Assembly: GCA_937902985.1 (NCBI GenBank)
Contig: CALFNG010000030.1
Coordinates: 1 to 51,003, forward strand
From: an uncultured Myxococcales bacterium
Lineage (GTDB): Bacteria; Myxococcota_A; Polyangia; Polyangiales; Polyangiaceae
DNA: 51,003 nucleotides
Reading direction: 5' to 3'
Shown here: positions 3,431-37,977 of the stretch, in pieces
Numbering within the stretch: position 1 is the first letter of the stretch
How the letters are laid out: each line of letters starts with the position of its first letter
Program-made: the position numbers and the translations under genes
Notes under the pieces: model-generated
Databases searched by the model: none
What the model was told of the DNA's origin: nothing
The model's input: the letters and a program-made list of their open reading frames with translations, nothing else

Positions 3431-4201
3431 TCACTGCGTCGTGAAGGCGAAGCTCACATCGAAGTTCGCGGACGTCGTCCCCGTGAAGCTCTTGTTCTGG
3501 CGGGTCCCGGCCACGTGCACGCGATAGGCCGTCTTCGCGGTCAGCGGGGCATTGCCGTAGAGAACGAGCGCGTTCGCCAGGTACCCGCCCGCCGATTGCG
3601 GCGTCATGACCTGGTGCGCGAGCTGAGCGCCCCCTTCGACGCCGAATTCGTCGGTGGTCAGCGTGATGCTCGTGGCCAGCATGTAGACGTGCACCGGGAG
3701 CGCGCTCGGCCAGCCGCCAGGGGGAACGGGCGGCGTCGGCTCCTCTTGCGCGCCGTTGAACGATCGCGCGACGCCGGTCATGCCGTCGTAGGGATACGAC
3801 ACGATGACGTCGGCGGGCGTCGTGGAGCCCGCGCCCTCGCCGAGATCGATGGTGTCGCAGCTCGTCGCGTTCCCGTAGCCGAAATCGCGGATCCGCGGAT
3901 CGAGCAGGGGGCTCCGGTGGTAGATGGAGCCGATCCACTGGCCGAGAGCCGCGGTCGGATCGTCGTCGAAGGCCATGACTTCAGACGCTTCGCAGCTCTG
4001 CGTGGCGCTCGGCTTGCAGGAGTATCCGGCGTCGGTCTCGCGGTCTCCGAAGTTCGCGGCCACGAAATCGGTGCAGCTCGACACCTCGGCATGAGGATTG
4101 GCAATGCAGGTCTGGTTCGACGCGTTCGCCGCGTAGTAGGCGCAGTGCTTGGTCGCCGACGTGTTGAGCGAGGCCACCATCGTCGCGCAGGGCGAGCCCA
4201 T
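3431..4201 (-). CDS. CAP/SCP-like extracellular protein with damaged 5' end
   Basis: The 256 residues contain a CAP (cysteine-rich secretory, SCP/PR1) domain. Visible are SATKHCAYYAAN with the first-helix His, NPHAEVSSC, RETDAGYSC and a trailing IYHRSPLLDPRIRDFGYG segment typical of bacterial CAP proteins. The C-terminal 100 residues look like a bacterial Ig-like beta-sandwich (YRVHVAGTRQNKSF...FDVSFAFTTQ). The start is odd. The same frame stays open upstream to 4402 and encodes an acceptable CAP beginning (VTAQQTTALQIVNQTRAAM), but it holds no ATG, GTG or TTG and no signal peptide before the stop at 4403-4405. The 5' end has probably suffered a frameshift or deletion, so the gene may be dead. 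Divergent from the kinase gene. Confidence 0.7.
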   Translation of the reverse strand: MGSPCATMVASLNTSATKHCAYYAANASNQTCIANPHAEVSSCTDFVAANFGDRETDAGYSCKPSATQSCEASEVMAFDDDPTAALGQWIGSIYHRSPLLDPRIRDFGYGNATSCDTIDLGEGAGSTTPADVIVSYPYDGMTGVARSFNGAQEEPTPPVPPGGWPSALPVHVYMLATSITLTTDEFGVEGGAQLAHQVMTPQSAGGYLANALVLYGNAPLTAKTAYRVHVAGTRQNKSFTGTTSANFDVSFAFTTQ

Positions 4202-24915: not shown

Positions 24916-26735
24916 TGCGAGGGAGCCTGCGAGCCCGAGCCGCGCTTGCCGGGCTCGCGTGCACGAGCCTCTGGGGGGCCGGTGGCACCGGCTGCTCCTT
25001 ACTCTTTCACGCGACGCCTGATCAGTGCAACACGGATGCTGACTGCGCGGTGCGCGGCTCCGGCTTTGCGGGCTCCATTTGTTTTTCGGGTACCTGCATC
25101 CGGCCCGATGCAGCAGCCATGCGCTACGACTCTGGATCGCACCCTTCCGAGGCAGGAGAGGCAGGGAATGACCACGACTCCGCCGCCGACGCGCAGGAGG
25201 GCGGTGTGCCATGCGCCACGTACATGGACTGCATGCCCATTTCGAGCGCCCCTCATCCCGAGGTTGCCTGCGACGTGGACACTCAGACTTGCATTCAGCT
25301 GACGACCGATGACTGCCCGTTCGTCATTGGCGACTACAAGGCAACGTCGGGCATCAACCCCATTTTTGTCGGGGCGTTTGCCCAGTTTCCGTCCGGACAG
25401 CCGCTCAACGACGTCAGCTACCTCAACTACGCCTTGGCGCAGGCCGACTTCCGAACGGCTGGAGGCATTCCGGCGGGGTCTGGCTCCGCTCTCCGAATGC
25501 CCGTGTTCGTCGCGTGCAACAATCAGGGCGACATCACGAGCATCACGAGGGCCTTGACGCACCTGACCGACGACGTGCACGCCCCCGCAGTCATCGCGGC
25601 ATTAACCTCCTCGGTTCTTCGCGAAGCGTTCTCGAACGTCAATCTTCCGGCGAGCAATGCAGCGACGAGCAAGAAGCTCTTCTTCATGAACCCTTATGGC
25701 GCCGACTCGACGCTCACCTCCCTGCCGACGGGCGGCTTGTTGTGGCACATCTTGGGCCAGCCGAGCGACCTTGCCGCCGCGTACGGGGCCGCCTTTCCGC
25801 GGGTCGAGGCCTACGTCCGGACACTGGCCGGCCTTGGCTCGAATCCCATGAAGGTCGCTACGGTGACGCCGAATTCCACCCTACCGCACGATCTGAACAC
25901 CGCCGTCAATCCCGTCCTTGCCTGGACCGGTGGCCCCGCGACTGCGGGCAACTCGAACTATCTCAACGTGGAGCTCTCGGCTTCCGTTCTGGACGGGGTT
26001 GCCGTCTCGGCGGTGGATGTGTCGGCCGCCGTGGCCCAGCTCGTTTCGTTCCATCCCGACGTGGTCATTTCGTACGGCTGCGACGAGGTCATCAACCTCA
26101 TCGAGACACTGGAAATTCCAACGGCTTCGAACCCCGCCCCGCCGCACCCGTTCTACCTCTTGGGGCCCTACAACGCTGGTGCCTCCCCGATGACCACGTG
26201 GATCGGAAGCTCCGAAAGCAAGCGGACGCGTGTCGCCGGCGTCAACTTTGCAACCACCCAGAATAGCCCCGTCCTGGGCGCCTACCAGGCTCACTTCAGC
26301 CAGACGTATCCCAACGCCCCCAATCAGGGCGACAATTACTACGACGCCGCATACTTTGCCATTTATGCGCTCGTCGCTGCGGGCCGCGTGCCGAACCTGA
26401 CCGGGGACAAACTGGCAAACGGAATGCCGAACCTCGTCTACTCAGCCGGCCCGCCGCTCAACATAGGACCCTCTTACATCGGCGGCGTTCTGAGTGCGCT
26501 CTCTTCATTGGGCACCACGGGCATTGCGCTGACGGACACGATCGGTCCGCCGCAGTTCAACAACCGCACCGGAGCGCGCATCACGCCAGGTGACATCTAC
26601 TGCATCAACCGAAACCAGAACGATGCGGGTGACCATGCTCCTTTCTACGCATACGACGCCTTGCGGCTCGCGGCTGCAGGAGATTCGGGGAGCCAAACAC
26701 TGGAGGGGACGTTTCCGTGCTACGCCGGCTTTTAG
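24912..26735 (+). CDS. lipoprotein with type I periplasmic-binding-protein-like domain
   Basis: A 607-residue exported lipoprotein. After the signal peptide (ARAALAGLACTSLWGAGGTGC) a Cys-rich segment (CNTDADCAVRGSG, CFSGTC) acts as a tether. From about residue 130 it has the alternating helix-strand order of type I periplasmic-binding proteins of branched-chain amino acid receptors: VVISYGCDEVINLIETLE, FYLLGPYN, VLGAYQAHFSQTYP and YYDAAYFAIYALVAAG, the last being the typical D-A-x-x-x-x-x-x-A helix. No permease genes are present, so sensing rather than transport is likely. It begins within the previous stop and ends 19 bases inside the protease gene. Confidence 0.8.
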   Translation: MMRGSLRARAALAGLACTSLWGAGGTGCSLLFHATPDQCNTDADCAVRGSGFAGSICFSGTCIRPDAAAMRYDSGSHPSEAGEAGNDHDSAADAQEGGVPCATYMDCMPISSAPHPEVACDVDTQTCIQLTTDDCPFVIGDYKATSGINPIFVGAFAQFPSGQPLNDVSYLNYALAQADFRTAGGIPAGSGSALRMPVFVACNNQGDITSITRALTHLTDDVHAPAVIAALTSSVLREAFSNVNLPASNAATSKKLFFMNPYGADSTLTSLPTGGLLWHILGQPSDLAAAYGAAFPRVEAYVRTLAGLGSNPMKVATVTPNSTLPHDLNTAVNPVLAWTGGPATAGNSNYLNVELSASVLDGVAVSAVDVSAAVAQLVSFHPDVVISYGCDEVINLIETLEIPTASNPAPPHPFYLLGPYNAGASPMTTWIGSSESKRTRVAGVNFATTQNSPVLGAYQAHFSQTYPNAPNQGDNYYDAAYFAIYALVAAGRVPNLTGDKLANGMPNLVYSAGPPLNIGPSYIGGVLSALSSLGTTGIALTDTIGPPQFNNRTGARITPGDIYCINRNQNDAGDHAPFYAYDALRLAAAGDSGSQTLEGTFPCYAGF

Positions 26736-27853
26736 CCGTCTTCCGGGCAGTCCCTCTCACCTTCCCGTGGCTTGCCGCGGTGGCTGCAGGGTGCGGGGTC
26801 GCCGCGGACAGAGAGCCTACCGGGGTTTCGCATCAGGGCATCGTTGGCGGAGCCGTGGTCGCGGGTGCTGCCTCCCCCGTGCTCTTTCTGCGCAGCCCGG
26901 GGGGCTCTTGCACAGCAGCTCTCGTCGCGCCGAATCTGGTGGCAACGGTACGCCACTGTGTGGCCTCGGGCGTCGATGGCCCGTTCTCGTGCACCCCCGC
27001 GGGAGATGTCGTGTTGACGGGGTCTGGCGCTGGAGAGATTGGAGCGGACTTCGCTCCGGACCAGATCACCTTTGTCAAGTGGACGGGCCTGTCCACGGGA
27101 TCCGTCATGTCGGCGCCTGCCGATGCGGTGGGAGCCCAGATTCTCTCCACGGGTACCTCAACTTCCTGCAGGGACGATCTGGCGTTCGTCGTCCTCGCCG
27201 CGCCACTCGAGGGCGTCGTGCCGCTGGCGATTCGCGTCACGGACTCCACGCGGGCTGGCGAATCGGTATCCGTTTGGGGATACGGTTTTACCGGCGAAGC
27301 CGGGGCAGCGACGGAGCTTCGCGTTCGCAGCGACGCGTACGTCGCCGCGATCGGCCCGACGAACCCGATGACCCTCACGCAGGCCGCGCCGCTCCGCTCG
27401 GTTCTGTTGGGCCCCGACGGGCTCACATGCAGCGGCGACAGCGGCGGCCCGGTCACATCGCACGCGACGGGGGCCATCGTCGCGCTCGCATCGCTGGGAC
27501 CTGCTCCCATTCCGGGATTTCCCGCGTGCTCGTCGACGCCGGTCGCGAGCTCGGGGCCCCTGCTGGCCAACTACGTACCTCTGGTGCTCGCCGCATTTGC
27601 GGCCGCGGGAGTTGCCCCCAACGTGGAGTCGGACGACGCCGGCGTGCTCGGGGAGCCCCACGATTCCGGATCCGGGCCCGACGGGACGCCCAGTTTGACG
27701 GAACCCGAAGCGGGCATCATGGGTAGCGACGCTGCAGGGGGATCGTGCTCGACCGCAGCGACGGCCGGGCGCGGACCCGGCCGGCGCGCGCCCGCCATCT
27801 TGGTTCTGGCCCTCGCATGGTCCGCGGCAAGCGCAAGGAGGCGTCGCTCATGA
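26717..27853 (+). CDS. trypsin-like serine protease with membrane-anchoring tail
   Basis: A 378-residue secreted S1-family protease. The GTG at 26717 is supported by GGAGGGG eight bases upstream, although it overlaps the previous gene by 19 bases. A lipoprotein-like leader ends at AAGCG. IVGG at 42-45 marks the usual activation site. The triad is complete: His80 in ATVRHC, Asp153 or Asp154 in CRDDLAFVVL, and Ser242 in CSGDSGGP. The C-terminus (PAILVLALAWSAASARRRRS) is a hydrophobic helix plus Arg cluster, the MYXO-CTERM-style sorting signal. Substrates are unknown. In this operon it could clip a surface lipoprotein to trigger signalling; that is inference. Confidence 0.88.
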   Translation: MLRRLLAVFRAVPLTFPWLAAVAAGCGVAADREPTGVSHQGIVGGAVVAGAASPVLFLRSPGGSCTAALVAPNLVATVRHCVASGVDGPFSCTPAGDVVLTGSGAGEIGADFAPDQITFVKWTGLSTGSVMSAPADAVGAQILSTGTSTSCRDDLAFVVLAAPLEGVVPLAIRVTDSTRAGESVSVWGYGFTGEAGAATELRVRSDAYVAAIGPTNPMTLTQAAPLRSVLLGPDGLTCSGDSGGPVTSHATGAIVALASLGPAPIPGFPACSSTPVASSGPLLANYVPLVLAAFAAAGVAPNVESDDAGVLGEPHDSGSGPDGTPSLTEPEAGIMGSDAAGGSCSTAATAGRGPGRRAPAILVLALAWSAASARRRRS

Positions 27854-28818
27854 GCTCGGAGGCGATCAGTTTGCAAAGTAGAGCCGCGTTGGTCCTGGCC
27901 ATGATTTGTTCCTTCCCGCTTGCCGCCAACGCGCAGCAGCGTACTTCCGCCGATGCGACTCAGCCCGCCGCCGGAGGTCGCGAGCGGTCCGACGACGAGG
28001 CGGCGACCCGGTTCAAGCAAGGCCTCAAGCTCTTCGACGAAGGAGACTATGCCCTGGCGCTCGTGGAGTTCCAGCGAGCCTATCAGCTCGCTCCAAACTA
28101 CAGGGCCCTTTACAACATTGCGCTCGTGAATGCTCAGCTCGGGCGTTACAGCGCCGCGACACGCGCCTTCGAGCAATACCTGCACGACGGCGGGGCCGCC
28201 ATTGGCGCAGAGCGGCAGGCTCAGGTTCGCAAGAGCCTCGACGACTTGAAGCTGCGCACGGCAACCCTCGAGCTTTCGGTCAGCGTCCCGCACGCGGAGG
28301 TCCAGCTCGACGGCAAGCCGCTCGAGGTCAGCCTGCTGCACGGTCGTCCGCTGCTGGTCGACGCCGGAGAACATACGCTGCAAGCCTCGGCACCCGGGTA
28401 TCAGCTGCTCGTTCGCCCCTTGGCCCTCGCCGGGACCGATCGGGCGATCGTGCGCCTCGACCTCGTCCCGATCGAGCAAGCCTCGGCGGGTCCGGCGCCG
28501 AAGCCCCGCCACCTGTTCGTTCCTGGGCTGGCGGCGACCGGCGCCTTCGCCGCCGGCGCCGTTGTCAGCGGCCTTGTCATGCTAAACGAGCGGTCGCGGC
28601 TGTCGACCCTGCAAAATACGGTGGGCTCGAGCCCGCAGAACCGGTCGAGCGCTGCGAATGCCGCGAACGCGGCGGCCGCCGTGGCCGACGTGCTGACCAG
28701 CCTCGCCCTCGTCGCCGGAGGCGTGTCGCTGTACCTGTCACTCCAACTGGGGAGCTCCGCGAAATCCCCCGAAATCTCCGTGTCACCGGGCCATGTCTTC
28801 TTCTCCGGCGCCTTCTAG
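27850..28818 (+). CDS. TPR and PEGA-domain membrane protein
   Basis: A 322-residue exported protein starting at ATG 27850, which overlaps the protease stop (ATGA) and has AAGGAGG eight bases upstream. After the signal peptide (ALVLAMICSFPLAANAQ) come TPR-like helices (KQGLKLFDEGDYALALVEFQ, RAYQLAPNYRALYNIALVNA). A PEGA-type beta module follows (ATLELSVSVPHAEVQLDGKP, VDAGEHTLQASAPGY). Two hydrophobic helices close it (VPGLAATGAFAAGAVVSGLV and VLTSLALVAGGVSLYLSLQ). Such TPR-PEGA proteins are frequent next to kinases and sigma-54 activators in myxobacteria. Its end overlaps the activator gene by 26 bases. Confidence 0.82.
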   Translation: MSSEAISLQSRAALVLAMICSFPLAANAQQRTSADATQPAAGGRERSDDEAATRFKQGLKLFDEGDYALALVEFQRAYQLAPNYRALYNIALVNAQLGRYSAATRAFEQYLHDGGAAIGAERQAQVRKSLDDLKLRTATLELSVSVPHAEVQLDGKPLEVSLLHGRPLLVDAGEHTLQASAPGYQLLVRPLALAGTDRAIVRLDLVPIEQASAGPAPKPRHLFVPGLAATGAFAAGAVVSGLVMLNERSRLSTLQNTVGSSPQNRSSAANAANAAAAVADVLTSLALVAGGVSLYLSLQLGSSAKSPEISVSPGHVFFSGAF

Positions 28819-30211
28819 GAATCACGCCCCGCCCACGACGCGGCCTGCATGCCGTGTGGAGTGGGACGAGGCCGGTGAGGCGCGATCGGCGATGGTCGAC
28901 GGCAGGCGAACCGTAGGCTCGGGATCCAAGTCCGATATCACCGTCGCTGACCCGGCGGTGTCCCAGACGCATCTCGAGATTGTTCCGCGGGCCGGTGGCG
29001 CCTGGGTGCGCGACCTCGGAAGCCGCAACGGGACGTTCGTCGGTGGCAAGCGGGTCGTTTCAAGCGTGGTTCCCTACGGCGGTTCGGTTCGAGTCGGCTC
29101 GACCGAGCTGCAGATCAGCGCCGCGGTCGCCGAATCGGGCGCGACGGCGCCCTGGCCGGACGCGTTCTTTGGCGGTCTCATCGGAACAAGCGCCGCGATG
29201 CGTGAGCTGTTCGCCACCCTGGCGCGCGTAGCGCCCCTCGATTGCACGGTCATGATCCAGGGAGAGACGGGCACGGGCAAGGAGCTCGTCGCCCGCGCTC
29301 TTCATCACTGCTCGACCAGGGCGAAGGGGCCGTTCACGGTCGTCGATTGTGGCGCGTTCTCGGAAAGCCTGTTCGAGGGCGAGCTCTTCGGCCATGCCAA
29401 GGGTGCCTTCACCGGAGCGGACCGGATGCGCGTCGGAGCCATCGAGAGCTCCGCGGACGGTACGGTGTTTCTCGACGAGATTGGCGAGCTTCCGATGAGC
29501 ATGCAGCCCAAGCTCTTGCGAGTGCTGGAGTCGTCGACCATACGCCGCATCGGAGAGTCGCAGCATCGCGACCTCGACGTGCGCTTCATTTCCGCCACCC
29601 ATCGTGACTTGTGGTCCATGGTGGAAAGCGGCTCATTTCGCGAAGACCTGTATTACCGGCTAGCGGTGGTTCCCATCCGCGTGCCTCCGCTCCGCGAGCG
29701 CTCGGACGACATCGAGCTTCTTCTCAGCCATTTCTTGCAGGACAAAGCCGCGGCGCTCACACCGAGCACGAAGATCAAGCTCGAGGGACGAGCGTGGACC
29801 GGCAACGTTCGCGAGTTGCGCAACTTTGCCACGCGGGCCTTGGTGGACGGCGACGTGCGCAAGGCCGCTAGAGACTTGGCGGAGAAGACGGGCGAGAGAA
29901 CCTCGCGGTCTCCGGGGGGGCGCCGCACCATCTTGCCACCGCAGGCAACTGCAGCAAGCAATCCTCCGGCGAGGTCGAAGTCTTCACGCCCGCCCATGGT
30001 TGCACCTTCACCGACGGCCTCGCCCATCCCGGAGCAGCCATCGTTCGCGCAGCCCCTGCGGGGATTCCGCGATGAGTGGACGACGTACGGAGAGCGTGCG
30101 TTCCTTCTCGCACTTCGCAAGCGGTACGGCGACAACGTGGCAGCCGCTGCGAAAGAGGCCGGCATCGACCGCACGCACCTTTACCGCCTACTCCGCAAAC
30201 ACTCCCTTTGA
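28793..30211 (+). CDS. FHA-domain sigma-54-dependent transcriptional activator
   Basis: A 472-residue enhancer-binding protein. Instead of a response-regulator receiver it has an N-terminal FHA domain (residues about 38-108: VGSGSKSDITVADPAVSQTH and RDLGSRNGTFVGG). This implies control by phosphothreonine rather than phosphoaspartate. The AAA+ domain is complete: Walker A GETGTGKE (157-164), GAFTGA loop (204-209) for sigma-54 contact, and Walker B VFLDEIGE (225-232). An Arg/Pro linker leads to a Fis-type helix-turn-helix at the C-terminus (AAAAKEAGIDRTHLYRLLRK). FHA-headed activators are known in Myxococcus xanthus. Last gene of the coupled operon; a -24/-12 promoter lies 180 bases downstream. 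Confidence 0.93.
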   Translation: MSSSPAPSRNHAPPTTRPACRVEWDEAGEARSAMVDGRRTVGSGSKSDITVADPAVSQTHLEIVPRAGGAWVRDLGSRNGTFVGGKRVVSSVVPYGGSVRVGSTELQISAAVAESGATAPWPDAFFGGLIGTSAAMRELFATLARVAPLDCTVMIQGETGTGKELVARALHHCSTRAKGPFTVVDCGAFSESLFEGELFGHAKGAFTGADRMRVGAIESSADGTVFLDEIGELPMSMQPKLLRVLESSTIRRIGESQHRDLDVRFISATHRDLWSMVESGSFREDLYYRLAVVPIRVPPLRERSDDIELLLSHFLQDKAAALTPSTKIKLEGRAWTGNVRELRNFATRALVDGDVRKAARDLAEKTGERTSRSPGGRRTILPPQATAASNPPARSKSSRPPMVAPSPTASPIPEQPSFAQPLRGFRDEWTTYGERAFLLALRKRYGDNVAAAAKEAGIDRTHLYRLLRKHSL

Positions 30212-30389
30212 CCGGACGCGACCTGTGGCAGACGGCGCCACGCGCGAGTGACCCGCGGCGCCACATTTCGACCGCGGCCGCCACTCCTGGGCCCGAAGCG
30301 ATGTGGGTCTTGCTCCCATCGGCCCGGCCAAATCGACGAGATCGTGCGCCGTTGCGCCCGTTGCCCCTTCGAATGCGCGCCACGTCCCG

Positions 30390-30405
30390 TGGCTTCGACA
30401 TTGCA
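30390..30405 (+). promoter_or_regulatory. sigma-54 (-24/-12) promoter
   Basis: The 16-base element TGGCTTCGACATTGCA has TGGC at 30390-30393 and TTGCA at 30401-30405. GG and GC have the obligatory 12-base offset of RpoN promoters. Predicted transcription would begin near 30417, giving a leader of about 47 bases before the ATG at 30464. It directly follows the FHA-type sigma-54 activator gene, which makes it a likely target. Confidence 0.65.
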
Positions 30406-30463
30406 CTGGGTCTGGGTCAGCCCGGACAGTCCCGTCAGAGGCGAACACAACGGAATATACATC

Positions 30464-31954
30464 ATGAGATTTAACCAGTTAGCGCTTGCGGTCCCTGTCG
30501 TTCTTCTGCTGGCCTGCGGTGGTGGGCAGGGCGTCTCGGACGAAACCACTGGGGACGTCGCGCAAGCGGTGACCCCTGGTGGTCTCACGGCGTCGCTCAC
30601 GCTTCCAGCCCCGAGCGGCGGGCACTTCTCCAACGCCAAGCTCAGCGTGACGAACAATTCCACGACCGCGATGTCCAACTGGCAGGTGATGGTGCAGACG
30701 GCGACCGGCACGAGCATCAGCTACGCGAGCCTGACTGGTGCGGAAACCATTCTCATGAGCCCTAGCTCCTGCACTTCGTGCCTCGTCCTCTTCGACCCGG
30801 GCGCGGCGGCTCCGCTCGCGGCGGGCGCGACGGCAACCCTGACCTTCTCTGGCACGGCCACGGCGGCGAGCAACTACATCACCATCGTCAACGTCGATGG
30901 TGACGCCAACGGGACGACCGGTTCCAACTGGCCCAAGGACGGGATCGACCACATCGCGCGCTCCGCGGCTTCAGGCGCAGTCGGCCTCCTCGTGTCGTAC
31001 GAAAATAACAAGCTCCCGAACTCGTCGCCTGCGGATCCGTACTACTCGTTGTATGATGGGTTTCTGCTCTCGGCCCACATGTACACTCTGAACTCGACCA
31101 ACACGGGCATCGTCTTCGATCCCAACGCTCCGGGGTACGCTTTCATCCCGGACGCGGCTCAGGCGACGCTGGCCGTCATGCAGACCAACCCAGAAGTCGG
31201 CAACTACCTGGCCATGGGTCTGCAGAGCTGTTTCGCCAATGCCAATGGCTCCTCCATCTACACGGTCAAGGCGGCGCCCTTCAAGGGCCTCACCGGCGCG
31301 GGAACGGGTACGTCCTGGGTCAGCACCCCGGGCGGCTCGGCTGGATCCACCGACACGTACAATGTGGTGGTCACGCCGCCCTCGCAGTCCACTCCCGAAG
31401 CCGATGTGTACACGCTGTCGCTGAAGTCCACCGTAGACACTTCGTTTGGCGCGGCGTACGTGACGAACAACGGGACGTCTTTATTGCTGTACACCGCCAT
31501 GAAGAAGAAATTCCAGACCGTGATCAGCAATCATGGCAATAACGGTGGCGGAAGTACGGTGGGATGCAGTCCATTCAATGGTCCAGGCGGCTCGGCCAAC
31601 CCGTTCTTCATGATCAAGCTGAACGGGAGTGGCGTGCCCGCGTACCTGCAGAACCAGCCGACGAACTGCCAGAATGGGTGCACGTCGACGCTGGTCATCG
31701 ACCCGCTCGCTTACCAGACGGCGCCGGCGGCCGGCGCCACCGTAGGGCAATCCCAGAGCACCGCGTTCCAGTTGGACTCGACCAACACCGTCGCAATGCC
31801 GGCGTACTACCAGTACTGGGCATGGACGACGAACGCATCCGGAGCCACGGTGTACGGGACGTTCAACGGCCCTATCAACAGCGTTGTTAACCGTAAGGCG
31901 GTGCTGACTGGGTACGGATGGGTGCAATGCGGAACGACGGGAGCCAGCTGCTAG
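30464..31954 (+). CDS. secreted lipoprotein under the sigma-54 promoter
   Basis: A 496-residue exported protein. MRFNQLALAVPVVLLLAC gives a lipobox with Cys18. The N-terminal 120 residues are a beta-sandwich-like domain (LTLPAPSGGHFSNAKLSVTN, SNWQVMVQTATGTSISYASL, TLTFSGTATA) that resembles carbohydrate-binding modules of the family 2 type. The remaining 370 residues form a Tyr/Thr/Asn-rich region with two Cys pairs (CSPF...CQNGC) and a final YGWVQCG. No catalytic motif is recognised. Translation start 30464 was chosen because the promoter and signal peptide define it; only a weak GGA is upstream. Probably the output of the upstream regulator. Confidence 0.72.
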   Translation: MRFNQLALAVPVVLLLACGGGQGVSDETTGDVAQAVTPGGLTASLTLPAPSGGHFSNAKLSVTNNSTTAMSNWQVMVQTATGTSISYASLTGAETILMSPSSCTSCLVLFDPGAAAPLAAGATATLTFSGTATAASNYITIVNVDGDANGTTGSNWPKDGIDHIARSAASGAVGLLVSYENNKLPNSSPADPYYSLYDGFLLSAHMYTLNSTNTGIVFDPNAPGYAFIPDAAQATLAVMQTNPEVGNYLAMGLQSCFANANGSSIYTVKAAPFKGLTGAGTGTSWVSTPGGSAGSTDTYNVVVTPPSQSTPEADVYTLSLKSTVDTSFGAAYVTNNGTSLLLYTAMKKKFQTVISNHGNNGGGSTVGCSPFNGPGGSANPFFMIKLNGSGVPAYLQNQPTNCQNGCTSTLVIDPLAYQTAPAAGATVGQSQSTAFQLDSTNTVAMPAYYQYWAWTTNASGATVYGTFNGPINSVVNRKAVLTGYGWVQCGTTGASC

Positions 31955-32036
31955 CCGTAAACCGCTGAGGAGAGGGGCGGCGTCCGCGCGTCCGTTGGGC
32001 GCGTGGACGCCGCCGCTCTCCAGCAAGGAGGGGTCG

Positions 32037-33620
32037 TTGGAACTCGGCGGCAAATACCGACTCATCTGCGAGCTAGGCCAGGGCGGCATGGCCGTGGTGC
32101 ACCTCGCGGTGGCTCTCGGGGCGTCGAACTTCCGCAAGCTCGCGGTGGTCAAGATCATTCGCCCGGAGATCGCGAGCGACCCCGATATGATCGAGATGTT
32201 CTTCGACGAGGCGCGCCTCTCGGCGCGCCTGAATCATCCCAACATCGTGCAGACCTACGACGTGGGGGTCAGCGACGGCCATCATTTCATGGCCATGGAG
32301 TATCTCGAGGGCGCTCCGCTCAGCGCGATTGTCTCTCAGGTGAAACCCGACTTTCAATCGCGCGCTCACGTACTGCTCGACGTGCTCGAAGGACTACACT
32401 ATGCGCACGAGCTCAAGGACTACAACGGCACACCGCTGGACATCGTTCACCGCGACATATCTCCTCACAACGTATTCGTAACTTACAGCGGCCACGTGAA
32501 AGTGCTCGACTTCGGCATCGCCAAGGCGACGACATCGTCCGTTCAGACCGCCACCGGCGTCGTCAAGGGGAAGCTCAAGTACATGGCACCCGAGCAGGCA
32601 CTCGGGCGAGGCACTGACGGCCGGGCGGACCTGTTCGCGGTGGGGGTGATGCTTTGGGAGGCCATGACGGGGCGACGTCGTTTCGCACGAGACATCTCGG
32701 ACGTGGCCGTGTACACGCGGGTCGCGTCAGGTGAGATACCGGAGACTCCCGATGCCACGTCTTTGGGATATCCGGCTGAGCTCAACGACATCATCAAGAA
32801 GGCGCTTGCCCCGAAGCCGCAGGAGCGTTTCCAGACCGCCGGGGAGTTTCGGGCGGAGCTGGCGGCAGCGCTCGGGAAAATGGGGCCCTGCTCCCTCCGA
32901 GCCCTCGGGGCGAGTGCGGCTCAGGCGTTTGCGGAGCAACGCGAAAAGATCAATAGCCTCCTCGAACAGCGGTTGCGCCAAATCGACGACGGAACCGAAG
33001 CGCCCGACATGACTCAACAGCTTCCCACTGTGCGACCGATTCGCGGCACGTGGTCCAGCAGCACGGCTGGGCCCCTGGCGGTGGTGGCCGCTGGCATCGA
33101 TCCTGTGGCAAGCGGCTCGACGCCGCACAGCGGGACCCAACAGGGGGGAATCACACGGCCGCTGTCGCCACCCGTGCAGGCGGGGATGCTCCGGCGCAGG
33201 CTGGCCGCCGCGGCCGTGGCGCTCGCCGTGGCCCTCGGTCTCATGTACGTGTCACGAGTGCACCGAACCGACGGCGATGGACCGGCGTCGACACGAGCGA
33301 CCTCGGCCGCGGCGACTCCAATCCCGACGATCGCTTCAGCGGCTCCGGCCGTGGCCGAAGCAGAAAAGCCTTTGTTCGAACGCCCCGGAGTGGCGCCAAG
33401 TGGGAGCGAGCGGCCCCCGGCGCCAGCTTGGAGAGCATTGGGAAGCCGCCCCCGCAAGCCCTCCGCCGTCACCGCGCCATCGGCGTCCGAAGGGACGACC
33501 TCCGCTCCGGCAGCGTCAGGCAGCGCTCAACCCGTGGACCCGAACCTTGACGTTGCCCCGCGCGTGGCACCGCGGGGGCCAAAGGTGCAACTCGAGCGCG
33601 ACAACCCTTGGTCCAACTAG
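32037..33620 (+). CDS. Ser/Thr protein kinase, HRDISPHN type
   Basis: A 527-residue membrane kinase. Translation most likely starts at TTG 32037, because AAGGAGG lies five bases before it and the product begins right at the kinase fold (MELGGKYRL); a TTG at 31995 has no ribosome site. Motifs: glycine loop GQGGMAVVH (14-22), Lys39 in AVVKII, catalytic Asp140 in HRDISPHN (Ser in place of the usual Lys, common in myxobacterial kinases), DFGIAK, KYMAPEQ and ADLFAVG. One membrane helix follows (LAAAAVALAVALGLMYVS), then a Pro/Ala-rich extracytoplasmic tail of about 120 residues. It could phosphorylate Thr read by the FHA activator; that is inference from proximity. Confidence 0.9.
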   Translation: MELGGKYRLICELGQGGMAVVHLAVALGASNFRKLAVVKIIRPEIASDPDMIEMFFDEARLSARLNHPNIVQTYDVGVSDGHHFMAMEYLEGAPLSAIVSQVKPDFQSRAHVLLDVLEGLHYAHELKDYNGTPLDIVHRDISPHNVFVTYSGHVKVLDFGIAKATTSSVQTATGVVKGKLKYMAPEQALGRGTDGRADLFAVGVMLWEAMTGRRRFARDISDVAVYTRVASGEIPETPDATSLGYPAELNDIIKKALAPKPQERFQTAGEFRAELAAALGKMGPCSLRALGASAAQAFAEQREKINSLLEQRLRQIDDGTEAPDMTQQLPTVRPIRGTWSSSTAGPLAVVAAGIDPVASGSTPHSGTQQGGITRPLSPPVQAGMLRRRLAAAAVALAVALGLMYVSRVHRTDGDGPASTRATSAAATPIPTIASAAPAVAEAEKPLFERPGVAPSGSERPPAPAWRALGSRPRKPSAVTAPSASEGTTSAPAASGSAQPVDPNLDVAPRVAPRGPKVQLERDNPWSN

Positions 33621-36191: not shown

Positions 36192-36417
36192 AGGCAACCC
36201 AGCACGTCGAAGACCGTCTCGCCGCCCGAACGGAGCGCTCACGGACCGTGTACGACGAACTCGTCACGTGGTGTCAGACGGGTGGGTTGCCTCCGTCGCG
36301 GGCGTGGTCACCGGCGACGTCACGAGCAGACTTGCGCCTGCTCGAATCGTCGATTCGCAATTTTCGCAACCCGGAACCCGATAGCGTGATCGTCGGGCTC
36401 GGCGACCGAGGATGCAG

Positions 36418-37977
36418 ATGAACGACAGCGCAACGAGAACTCGCGGACACGCCCGAACGGCGAAGACACCGACCAGGCCGTTCTTCTCGACGGCCTTCTT
36501 CGCCTTGGCCTGCAGCGCTTGCACGACGATCTTGGGGGACTTCAGCGCTGCACCCGGGCCGGGCGTGCTCGACGACGGGGGATCGCAGGCGGACACCGCG
36601 CCCCCTCCTGGAGGGGATTCCACTACGGACACCGGCACGCCCGACGATGGGCGAAGCACCGACGTGGCCGACGTGGCCGACGTGGCCAACGTGGCCGACG
36701 TGGCCACGGAGGCGCCCGGCGCGCCCCTGAACGTGGCTGCCGCAGCGGTGCCGGTCGTCACCACCGTGACCACGTTGGCAGGCTCGGGCACGGCCGCGTT
36801 TGTCAACGGGACGGGTGTTGCGGCGAGTTTTAGCGGCCCCACCGCTCTCGCGGTGGACGCGGCCGGAAACGTCTACGTCGCGGACACCGCCAATCAGCGC
36901 ATTCGTAAGGTGACGCCGTCGGGCGTGGTAACCACATTGGCGGGCTCGGGCACGTCCACGTTTGCCGACGGCACGGGCGTCAACGCGAGTTTCAGCATTC
37001 CCTTGGGCGTGGCCGTGGACGCCGCCGGGGTCGTCTACGTCGCGGACGGGGGCAACCAGCGCATTCGTAAGGTGACGCCATCAGGTGTGGTGACGACGCT
37101 CGCGGGCTCGGGCACGGCCGCGTTCGCCGATGGGACGGGTGCCGCCGCGAGCTTCAGCGGCCCGAGTGGGGTTGCGCTGGACGGCATCGGGAACGTCTAC
37201 GTCGCGGACACGACCAACCAGCGCATTCGTCTGGTGACGCCCGCGGGCGTGGTATCGACGCTAGCCGGCTCGGGCACCGCCACGTTTGCCAACGGCACGG
37301 GCGGCGCGGCGAGCTTCGACTACCCCAACGCCCTTGCCGTGGACGCCGGGAACGTCTGGATCGCGGATTCGGGCAATGACCGCATTCGCAAGATGACCCC
37401 CGCCGGCATGGTGATGACGCTCGCGGGCTCGAGCACGTTCAACCCGTTCGCGGACGGCACGGGCGCCGCGGCGAGCTTCAACTCCCCCCAGGGCATCGCG
37501 CTGGACGCGGCCGACAACGCGTACGTCGGTGACCAGAACCACCACCGCATCCGGAAGGTGACGCCCGCGGGCGTCGTGACGACGCTCGCCGGCTCGGGCA
37601 CGCCCTCGTTTGCAGACGGGCCGGCCGCGGGAGCGGCGTTCTTCAATCCCTCGGGCATCGCGGTGGACGCGGCCCGCAACGTCTATGTGGGTGACACGAA
37701 CAACAACCGCATTCGCAAGATCGTCTCGGTCGGCATCCAGCAGCTCTCGGTGACGTGGAGCGCCCCGAGCACGCCGGGGAGCGCGGCCATCAGCGGATAC
37801 ACAGCGTCCGCAAGCGCCTCTGGTTACTCACCCCAGACCTGCAGCGCCGCCGCCGGCGCCACGTCGTGCACGATCGACGGGCTCACGAGCGACGTCCCCT
37901 ACAGCGTGTCCGTCACCGCGACCAGCGCCGCCGGCACGAGCGCGCCGTCGACCTCCGTCATCGCCATCCCGAACTGA
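36418..37977 (+). CDS. secreted NHL-repeat beta-propeller with C-terminal Fn3-like domain
   Basis: A 519-residue exported protein. ATG 36418 is preferred over 36412 because GAGG lies six bases before it. The hydrophobic leader FFSTAFFALACSAC gives a lipoprotein-type Cys. A tethering region includes a 9-bp tandem repeat (DVA units). Six beta-propeller blades follow, each with VTTLAGSGTAAFADGTGAAA, then GVAVDAAGNVYVAD, then NQRIRKVTPSGV. This is the NHL pattern. The last 85 residues (QQLSVTWSAPSTPGSAAISG...YSVSVTATSAAG) form an Fn3-like module. Likely a surface protein for protein or sugar binding; enzymatic residues are not seen. It overlaps the convergent MazF-like frame by 79 bases. Confidence 0.88.
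   Translation: MNDSATRTRGHARTAKTPTRPFFSTAFFALACSACTTILGDFSAAPGPGVLDDGGSQADTAPPPGGDSTTDTGTPDDGRSTDVADVADVANVADVATEAPGAPLNVAAAAVPVVTTVTTLAGSGTAAFVNGTGVAASFSGPTALAVDAAGNVYVADTANQRIRKVTPSGVVTTLAGSGTSTFADGTGVNASFSIPLGVAVDAAGVVYVADGGNQRIRKVTPSGVVTTLAGSGTAAFADGTGAAASFSGPSGVALDGIGNVYVADTTNQRIRLVTPAGVVSTLAGSGTATFANGTGGAASFDYPNALAVDAGNVWIADSGNDRIRKMTPAGMVMTLAGSSTFNPFADGTGAAASFNSPQGIALDAADNAYVGDQNHHRIRKVTPAGVVTTLAGSGTPSFADGPAAGAAFFNPSGIAVDAARNVYVGDTNNNRIRKIVSVGIQQLSVTWSAPSTPGSAAISGYTASASASGYSPQTCSAAAGATSCTIDGLTSDVPYSVSVTATSAAGTSAPSTSVIAIPN
36661..36705 (+). repeat. 5 x 9-bp in-frame tandem repeat
   Basis: Five copies of GACGTGGCC lie head to tail (the fourth begins AAC) in the tether of the NHL protein and encode (D/N)VA units. 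Gain or loss of copies would change linker length without shifting frame. Confidence 0.85.

Follow-up and report, generated by a model that had tools for sequence, protein, structure and literature searches.

A probable sigma-54 promoter between an FHA-domain activator gene and a lipoprotein gene in an uncultured Myxococcales bacterium

FHA-domain enhancer-binding proteins are reportedly present in Myxococcus xanthus (Jelsbak, Givskov and Kaiser, 2005), and, going by the title of that work, their domain order of FHA, sigma-54 interaction domain and DNA-binding end is that of the activator described here. Myxobacterial genomes encode dozens of sigma-54 activators. Sigma-54 is described as essential in M. 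xanthus (PMC12316311). An activator beside its own promoter is the usual arrangement in Desulfovibrio vulgaris, where 10 of 13 one-component activators adjoin a sigma-54 promoter (PMC4641369). In the passages of that account drawn on here, the promoters mostly either run divergently from the activator gene or drive its own operon, unlike the present locus, whereas the promoter of DVU0569 lies downstream of the activator gene, as it does here; the same passages do not mention FHA, which is the type of the present activator (PMC4641369). The NtrC-like activator NmpR of M. xanthus binds, in the sections of its description used here, to a pair of dyads at its own locus that precede a sigma-54 site, a layout like the one reported below (PMC11841059). 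However, NmpR is a two-component response regulator rather than an FHA-type protein, and its sites, GCGCA-N5-TGCGC, are 14 bp apart, whereas our dyads have another sequence and another spacing (PMC11841059). Sigma-54 has also been tied to the bacterial exterior, with lipoproteins and surface molecules among the linked outputs, a theme that is broadly statistical and, in the text available, is stated without the gene order found here (PMC3162934). Among the titles and abstract openings of the open-licence papers that our searches listed, no description of FHA activators with adjacent lipoprotein targets was found. Because local pairing of activator and promoter is known, the locus adds an example and not a new principle.

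The stretch of DNA that was analyzed, hereafter the window, is 51,003 nucleotides long and constitutes contig C30 in a draft genome of 563 contigs and 8.3 Mb. We propose that the gap between an FHA activator gene and a lipoprotein gene (30212-30463) acts as a sigma-54-dependent promoter region, on which the product of that activator gene works and which drives the lipoprotein gene and probably the kinase gene behind; this explanation as a whole is given a probability of about 0.6. The promoter is better supported than its link to the neighboring activator. The locus most likely represents a known type of small local switch, recurring in related bacteria with different output proteins.

The candidate promoter core, TGGCTTCGACATTGCA (30390-30405, + strand), was recognized by pattern match, spacing, and placement. 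The sigma-54 consensus is given as TGGCACG-N4-TTGC(T/A) in the portion of the source consulted (PMC7910581). The preliminary description had called the site near-consensus, and this holds for TGGC, for TTGCA, and for the required spacing of 12 bases from the -24 GG (30391-30392) to the -12 GC (30403-30404), but the ACG part of the consensus reads TTC. The core lies 178 bp past the activator stop (30211) and 58 bp ahead of the lipoprotein ATG (30464), and the coordinates of the two open reading frames (28793-30211 and 30464-31954) agree with the position first reported for it. Counting from the C at -12, transcription is predicted to start at about 30416 (+ strand), which by arithmetic would give a leader of ~48 nt; the ribosome-binding site before the ATG looks weak by eye. 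The genome has a single hit to the sigma-54 DNA-binding domain (PF04552, E 2.6e-65), that is, rpoN.

How often such a site would arise by chance was assessed from window and genome counts. The pattern TGGC-N7-TTGCA occurs twice in the window against 0.19 copies expected from shuffles, and the relaxed TGGC-N7-TTGCW likewise twice against 0.47, with at least two copies in 8 of 100 shuffles. The second exact copy (4003-4018) falls inside an oppositely oriented predicted gene (3431-4201) and is probably a chance match. Across the genome TGGC-N7-TTGCW has 89 copies and the reversed pattern 185, so there is no genome-wide excess, and overall enrichment was rejected. Placement was analyzed for 88 of the 89 copies, two of them in the window, with one copy on contig C541 excluded; a copy counted as well placed when its distance to the start of a gene on the same strand was from -15 to 200 nt. 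By our simple gene caller, 38 of the 88 are outside predicted genes, while non-coding sequence makes up 19.5% of bases. Well-placed copies number 23, compared with a mean of 4.8 at random positions (about 5.4% of random placements; maximum 12 in 2000 repeats) and with 9 when the same 88 sites are flipped in strand. From these figures we estimate that roughly 60-80% of the well-placed copies are real, and the product of window expectation and placement rate gives only ~0.03 well-placed copies per window. By eye, the products of several of the 23 genes downstream are secreted proteins or lipoproteins. Since well-placed copies exceed the controls, the copy at 30390-30405 is probably a real promoter, and chance alone is an unlikely origin for it. 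A copy on contig C170 that differs at a single base was set aside as apparently within coding sequence, judged by eye. We used simple versions of our own for the gene caller, the signal-peptide rule, and the scoring matrix, the matrix being built on the consensus with column weights of our choosing, and the caller erred in the window by starting the lipoprotein gene at 30401.

The activator gene (28793-30211, + strand) encodes, as initially described, an FHA-headed sigma-54 activator: Pfam detects FHA (1.4e-12), Sigma54_activat (2.6e-66) and AAA_lid_14, and the AAA+ domain carries an intact GAFTGA and Walker motifs, as expected of this class. A C-terminal helix-turn-helix was assigned by eye only, and the start is uncertain, the first ATG being at 28793 and the start by our gene caller at 28856. 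That first ATG is overlapped by the end of a TPR protein gene (27817-28818, + strand; TPR matches, start from our gene caller), and the TPR protein and activator are probably made from one transcript. Relatives of the activator at E 1e-60 were found in all 58 genomes searched. The phosphate-contacting residues of FHA domains are usually Arg, Ser and Asn. In the window activator the Ser and Asn are kept and the Arg is replaced by Ser, so that the set for phosphothreonine binding is incomplete. Among 124 FHA activators the usual Arg position is occupied by S in 52, T in 29, A in 17, R in 14, K in 11 and G in 1, and almost no variation is seen at the Ser, His and Asn positions. Ser, Thr or Ala thus stands in place of Arg in 98 of these 124 activators of the order. 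FHA domains lacking the Arg may recognize phosphothreonine atypically or not at all.

The downstream product (30464-31954, + strand) has a short signal sequence and an LLAC lipobox, consistent with the secreted lipoprotein originally annotated. It belongs to no known family: Pfam gave no match at 0.001 and, with E allowed up to 5, nothing that passed a cut-off, and the PDB gave no match of note. No orthologue was found among 95 other relatives, so no footprint is possible for the window's own layout; 376 other genomes of the phylum yielded two weak N-terminal matches. The next gene, 40 bp behind, encodes a Ser/Thr protein kinase (31995-33620, + strand; Pkinase 1.1e-37, start codon uncertain) with one apparent membrane segment seen by eye, and it possibly shares a transcript with the lipoprotein gene.

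Between the activator stop and the promoter core are two tandem dyads of the form GTGRC-N7-GCCAC, spaced 23 bp start to start, the first beginning 14 bp past the stop. Dyad 1, GTGGCAGACGGCGCCAC (30225-30241, + strand), has perfect 5-base arms, and dyad 2, GTGACCCGCGGCGCCAC (30248-30264, + strand), is identical to it at 13 of 17 bases; both are proposed activator-binding sites, a plausible assignment. The dyads were identified post hoc. A best-pair test for them gave p 0.035, and chance pairs are common: when the gap was shuffled 2000 times, 130 of the shuffles had some tandem dyad pair, as did 357 of 2889 real segments. The extended motif GTGRCN4GGCGCCAC has five copies in the genome, two of which are those in the gap. 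The other three (two within predicted genes, one 30 bp after a predicted gene) have no site scoring at least 10 within 400 bp, and so no wider regulon was found. Among the best 45 of 144 activators, ranked by similarity of the DNA-binding end, a tandem pair of the window's dyad sequence was found in the window alone. Tandem dyads likewise begin no more than 17 bp past the activator stop at loci L265 and L296. In a first set of activators, tandem dyads were found in 5 of 11 gaps versus 4 of 70 controls (p 0.002; p 0.007 with the window removed), but a second set gave 2 of 12, and the excess was rejected as a general rule. The L296 gap, which precedes a gene for a secreted protein, also contains about three tandem copies, with a period of 15 bases, of a unit that carries a -24/-12-like site.

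To compare the layout across relatives, 144 activators, 124 of FHA type, were collected from related genomes and the window's own genome as the first set, and 67 FHA activators new to the analysis, gathered by searching with first-set activators, formed the second. A forward match was a score of at least 9, and gene starts were corrected for signal sequences. In the first set, gaps before secreted genes contained a forward match in 7 of 16 cases (the window being one of the seven) and a reverse match in 2 of 16, and gaps before other genes in 3 of 29 and 0 of 29, respectively. The corresponding second-set figures are 9 of 13 and 1 of 13 before secreted genes, and 0 of 7 in both directions before other genes; seven of the nine hits are orthologues of first-set loci (the L028 and L223 families), because the search used first-set activators. 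Together, gaps from an FHA activator to a secreted gene had forward matches in 16 of 29 and reverse matches in 3 of 29, the window included, or 8 of 19 and 3 of 19 homology clusters. Where a secreted gene has no activator in front of it, the control gaps had 10 of 45 forward and 1 of 45 reverse, and the control gaps before other genes 10 of 131 and 2 of 131. Gap for gap, the activator class exceeds the secreted control (Fisher p 0.006), a comparison weakened by its inclusion of orthologues; after homologues are collapsed (8/19 vs 10/45) the excess is not clear. When the next gene is of any type, forward matches occur in 11 of 54 gaps after activators versus 10 of 80 after other genes, and activator adjacency by itself was set aside, its rate not clearly exceeding that of other genes. 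In class assignment, L032 was missed in the first pass, L015 was scored as not secreted though its start resembles a lipoprotein, and the proteins called secreted at L023, L254, L029 and L258 are possibly membrane proteins.

A clearer test case than the window is a family of loci in seven species (L028, L032, and L305-L309), where a different FHA activator is followed by a different lipoprotein, each orthologous across the family. Their gaps contain, in order, the activator stop, two tandem dyads, the -24/-12 site, a ribosome-binding site and the lipoprotein ATG. The conserved letters are GAGAC...ACTCA in the dyads, TTGGCAC...TGC at -24/-12, AGGAGG, and the ATG, with little else invariant. The dyads and those of the window have different sequences, which is what activator-specific sites would predict.

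Taken with established sigma-54 biology, these features suggest how the window locus would work. The activator, probably produced with the TPR protein, would bind the dyads at 30225-30264 as dimers, ~130 bp upstream of the -24 element, and DNA looping would let it touch sigma-54 RNA polymerase held at 30390-30405, a site presumed to be used as such sites are elsewhere. Its AAA+ domain would open the promoter, transcription would begin near the predicted start, and the transcript would cover the lipoprotein gene and probably that of the kinase; the FHA domain might gate the activator through a protein contact. The activator most likely drives the lipoprotein gene, and perhaps the kinase gene too. 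Counting against the whole explanation are the ACG mismatch, the lack of overall genome enrichment, the flipped-strand count of 9/88, the frequency of chance dyad pairs, the dyad excess of the first set not recurring in the second, the cluster counts of 8/19 forward and 3/19 reverse against 10/45 in secreted-gene controls, the absence of a lipoprotein orthologue among 95 relatives, and the weak-looking ribosome-binding site.

The preliminary description had further held that regulator, promoter, and output gene are linked in cis. This is plausible and is backed by the tandem dyads, the conserved layout of one family, and the higher match frequency where an FHA activator is followed by a secreted gene, but the dyads were not predicted in advance and similar sites precede 10 of 45 secreted genes with no activator before them. 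It is conceivable that the sigma-54 promoter is real and is driven by another activator of the genome, the neighboring FHA activator acting elsewhere and the dyads being due to chance or belonging to another protein. The genome offers many candidates for that role (~50 matches to the activator at E 1e-20), secreted genes without a neighboring activator also have sites in the forward direction (10 of 45, with 1 in reverse), and the frequency of sites after activators and after other genes does not clearly differ. We nevertheless consider this explanation unlikely, given the adjacency of the genes, the tandem dyads beside the activator stop, the layout conserved in seven species, and the fact that local pairing is usual in the D. 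vulgaris account (PMC4641369).

A chance match of the 16-mer would instead require the lipoprotein gene to be transcribed from another type of promoter or by read-through out of the activator gene. Genome-wide counts near chance are compatible with this, as is the estimate that chance could account for some 5 to 9 of the 23 copies that are well placed, and no intrinsic terminator was found in 30150-30500, between the activator and lipoprotein genes. Set against these are the very low expectation of a well-placed copy in any one window and the lack of a sigma-70-like promoter in 30150-30500, in a scan limited to one promoter type, and we regard a chance match as quite unlikely. The promoter reading, in which 30390-30405 is probably a sigma-54 promoter, has good support from the core and its spacing, from the rpoN gene, and from the surplus of well-placed copies across the genome.

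If it is true that the target of an FHA activator usually follows its own gene when a secreted-protein gene is next, targets could be proposed from sequence and tested singly, first in the seven-species family. A broader and rather doubtful proposal is that the FHA activators of the order are private switches, each with its own dyads and a sigma-54 promoter directly behind its stop, driving one unrelated secreted protein. At the window locus the transcript would also encode a membrane Ser/Thr kinase, which could feed back on the FHA activator via a non-canonical FHA surface.

Ser/Thr kinase genes number 36 in 471 kb of FHA activator loci (L223-L302) versus 4 in 238 kb of comparison loci from the window's own genome, a density ~four to five times higher around FHA activators in samples that come from different genomes. 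Elsewhere in the window, the TPR and activator genes are closely preceded by a gene for a trypsin-like protease (26717-27853), and further downstream lies a gene (36412-37977) whose NHL-repeat product has an fn3 domain.
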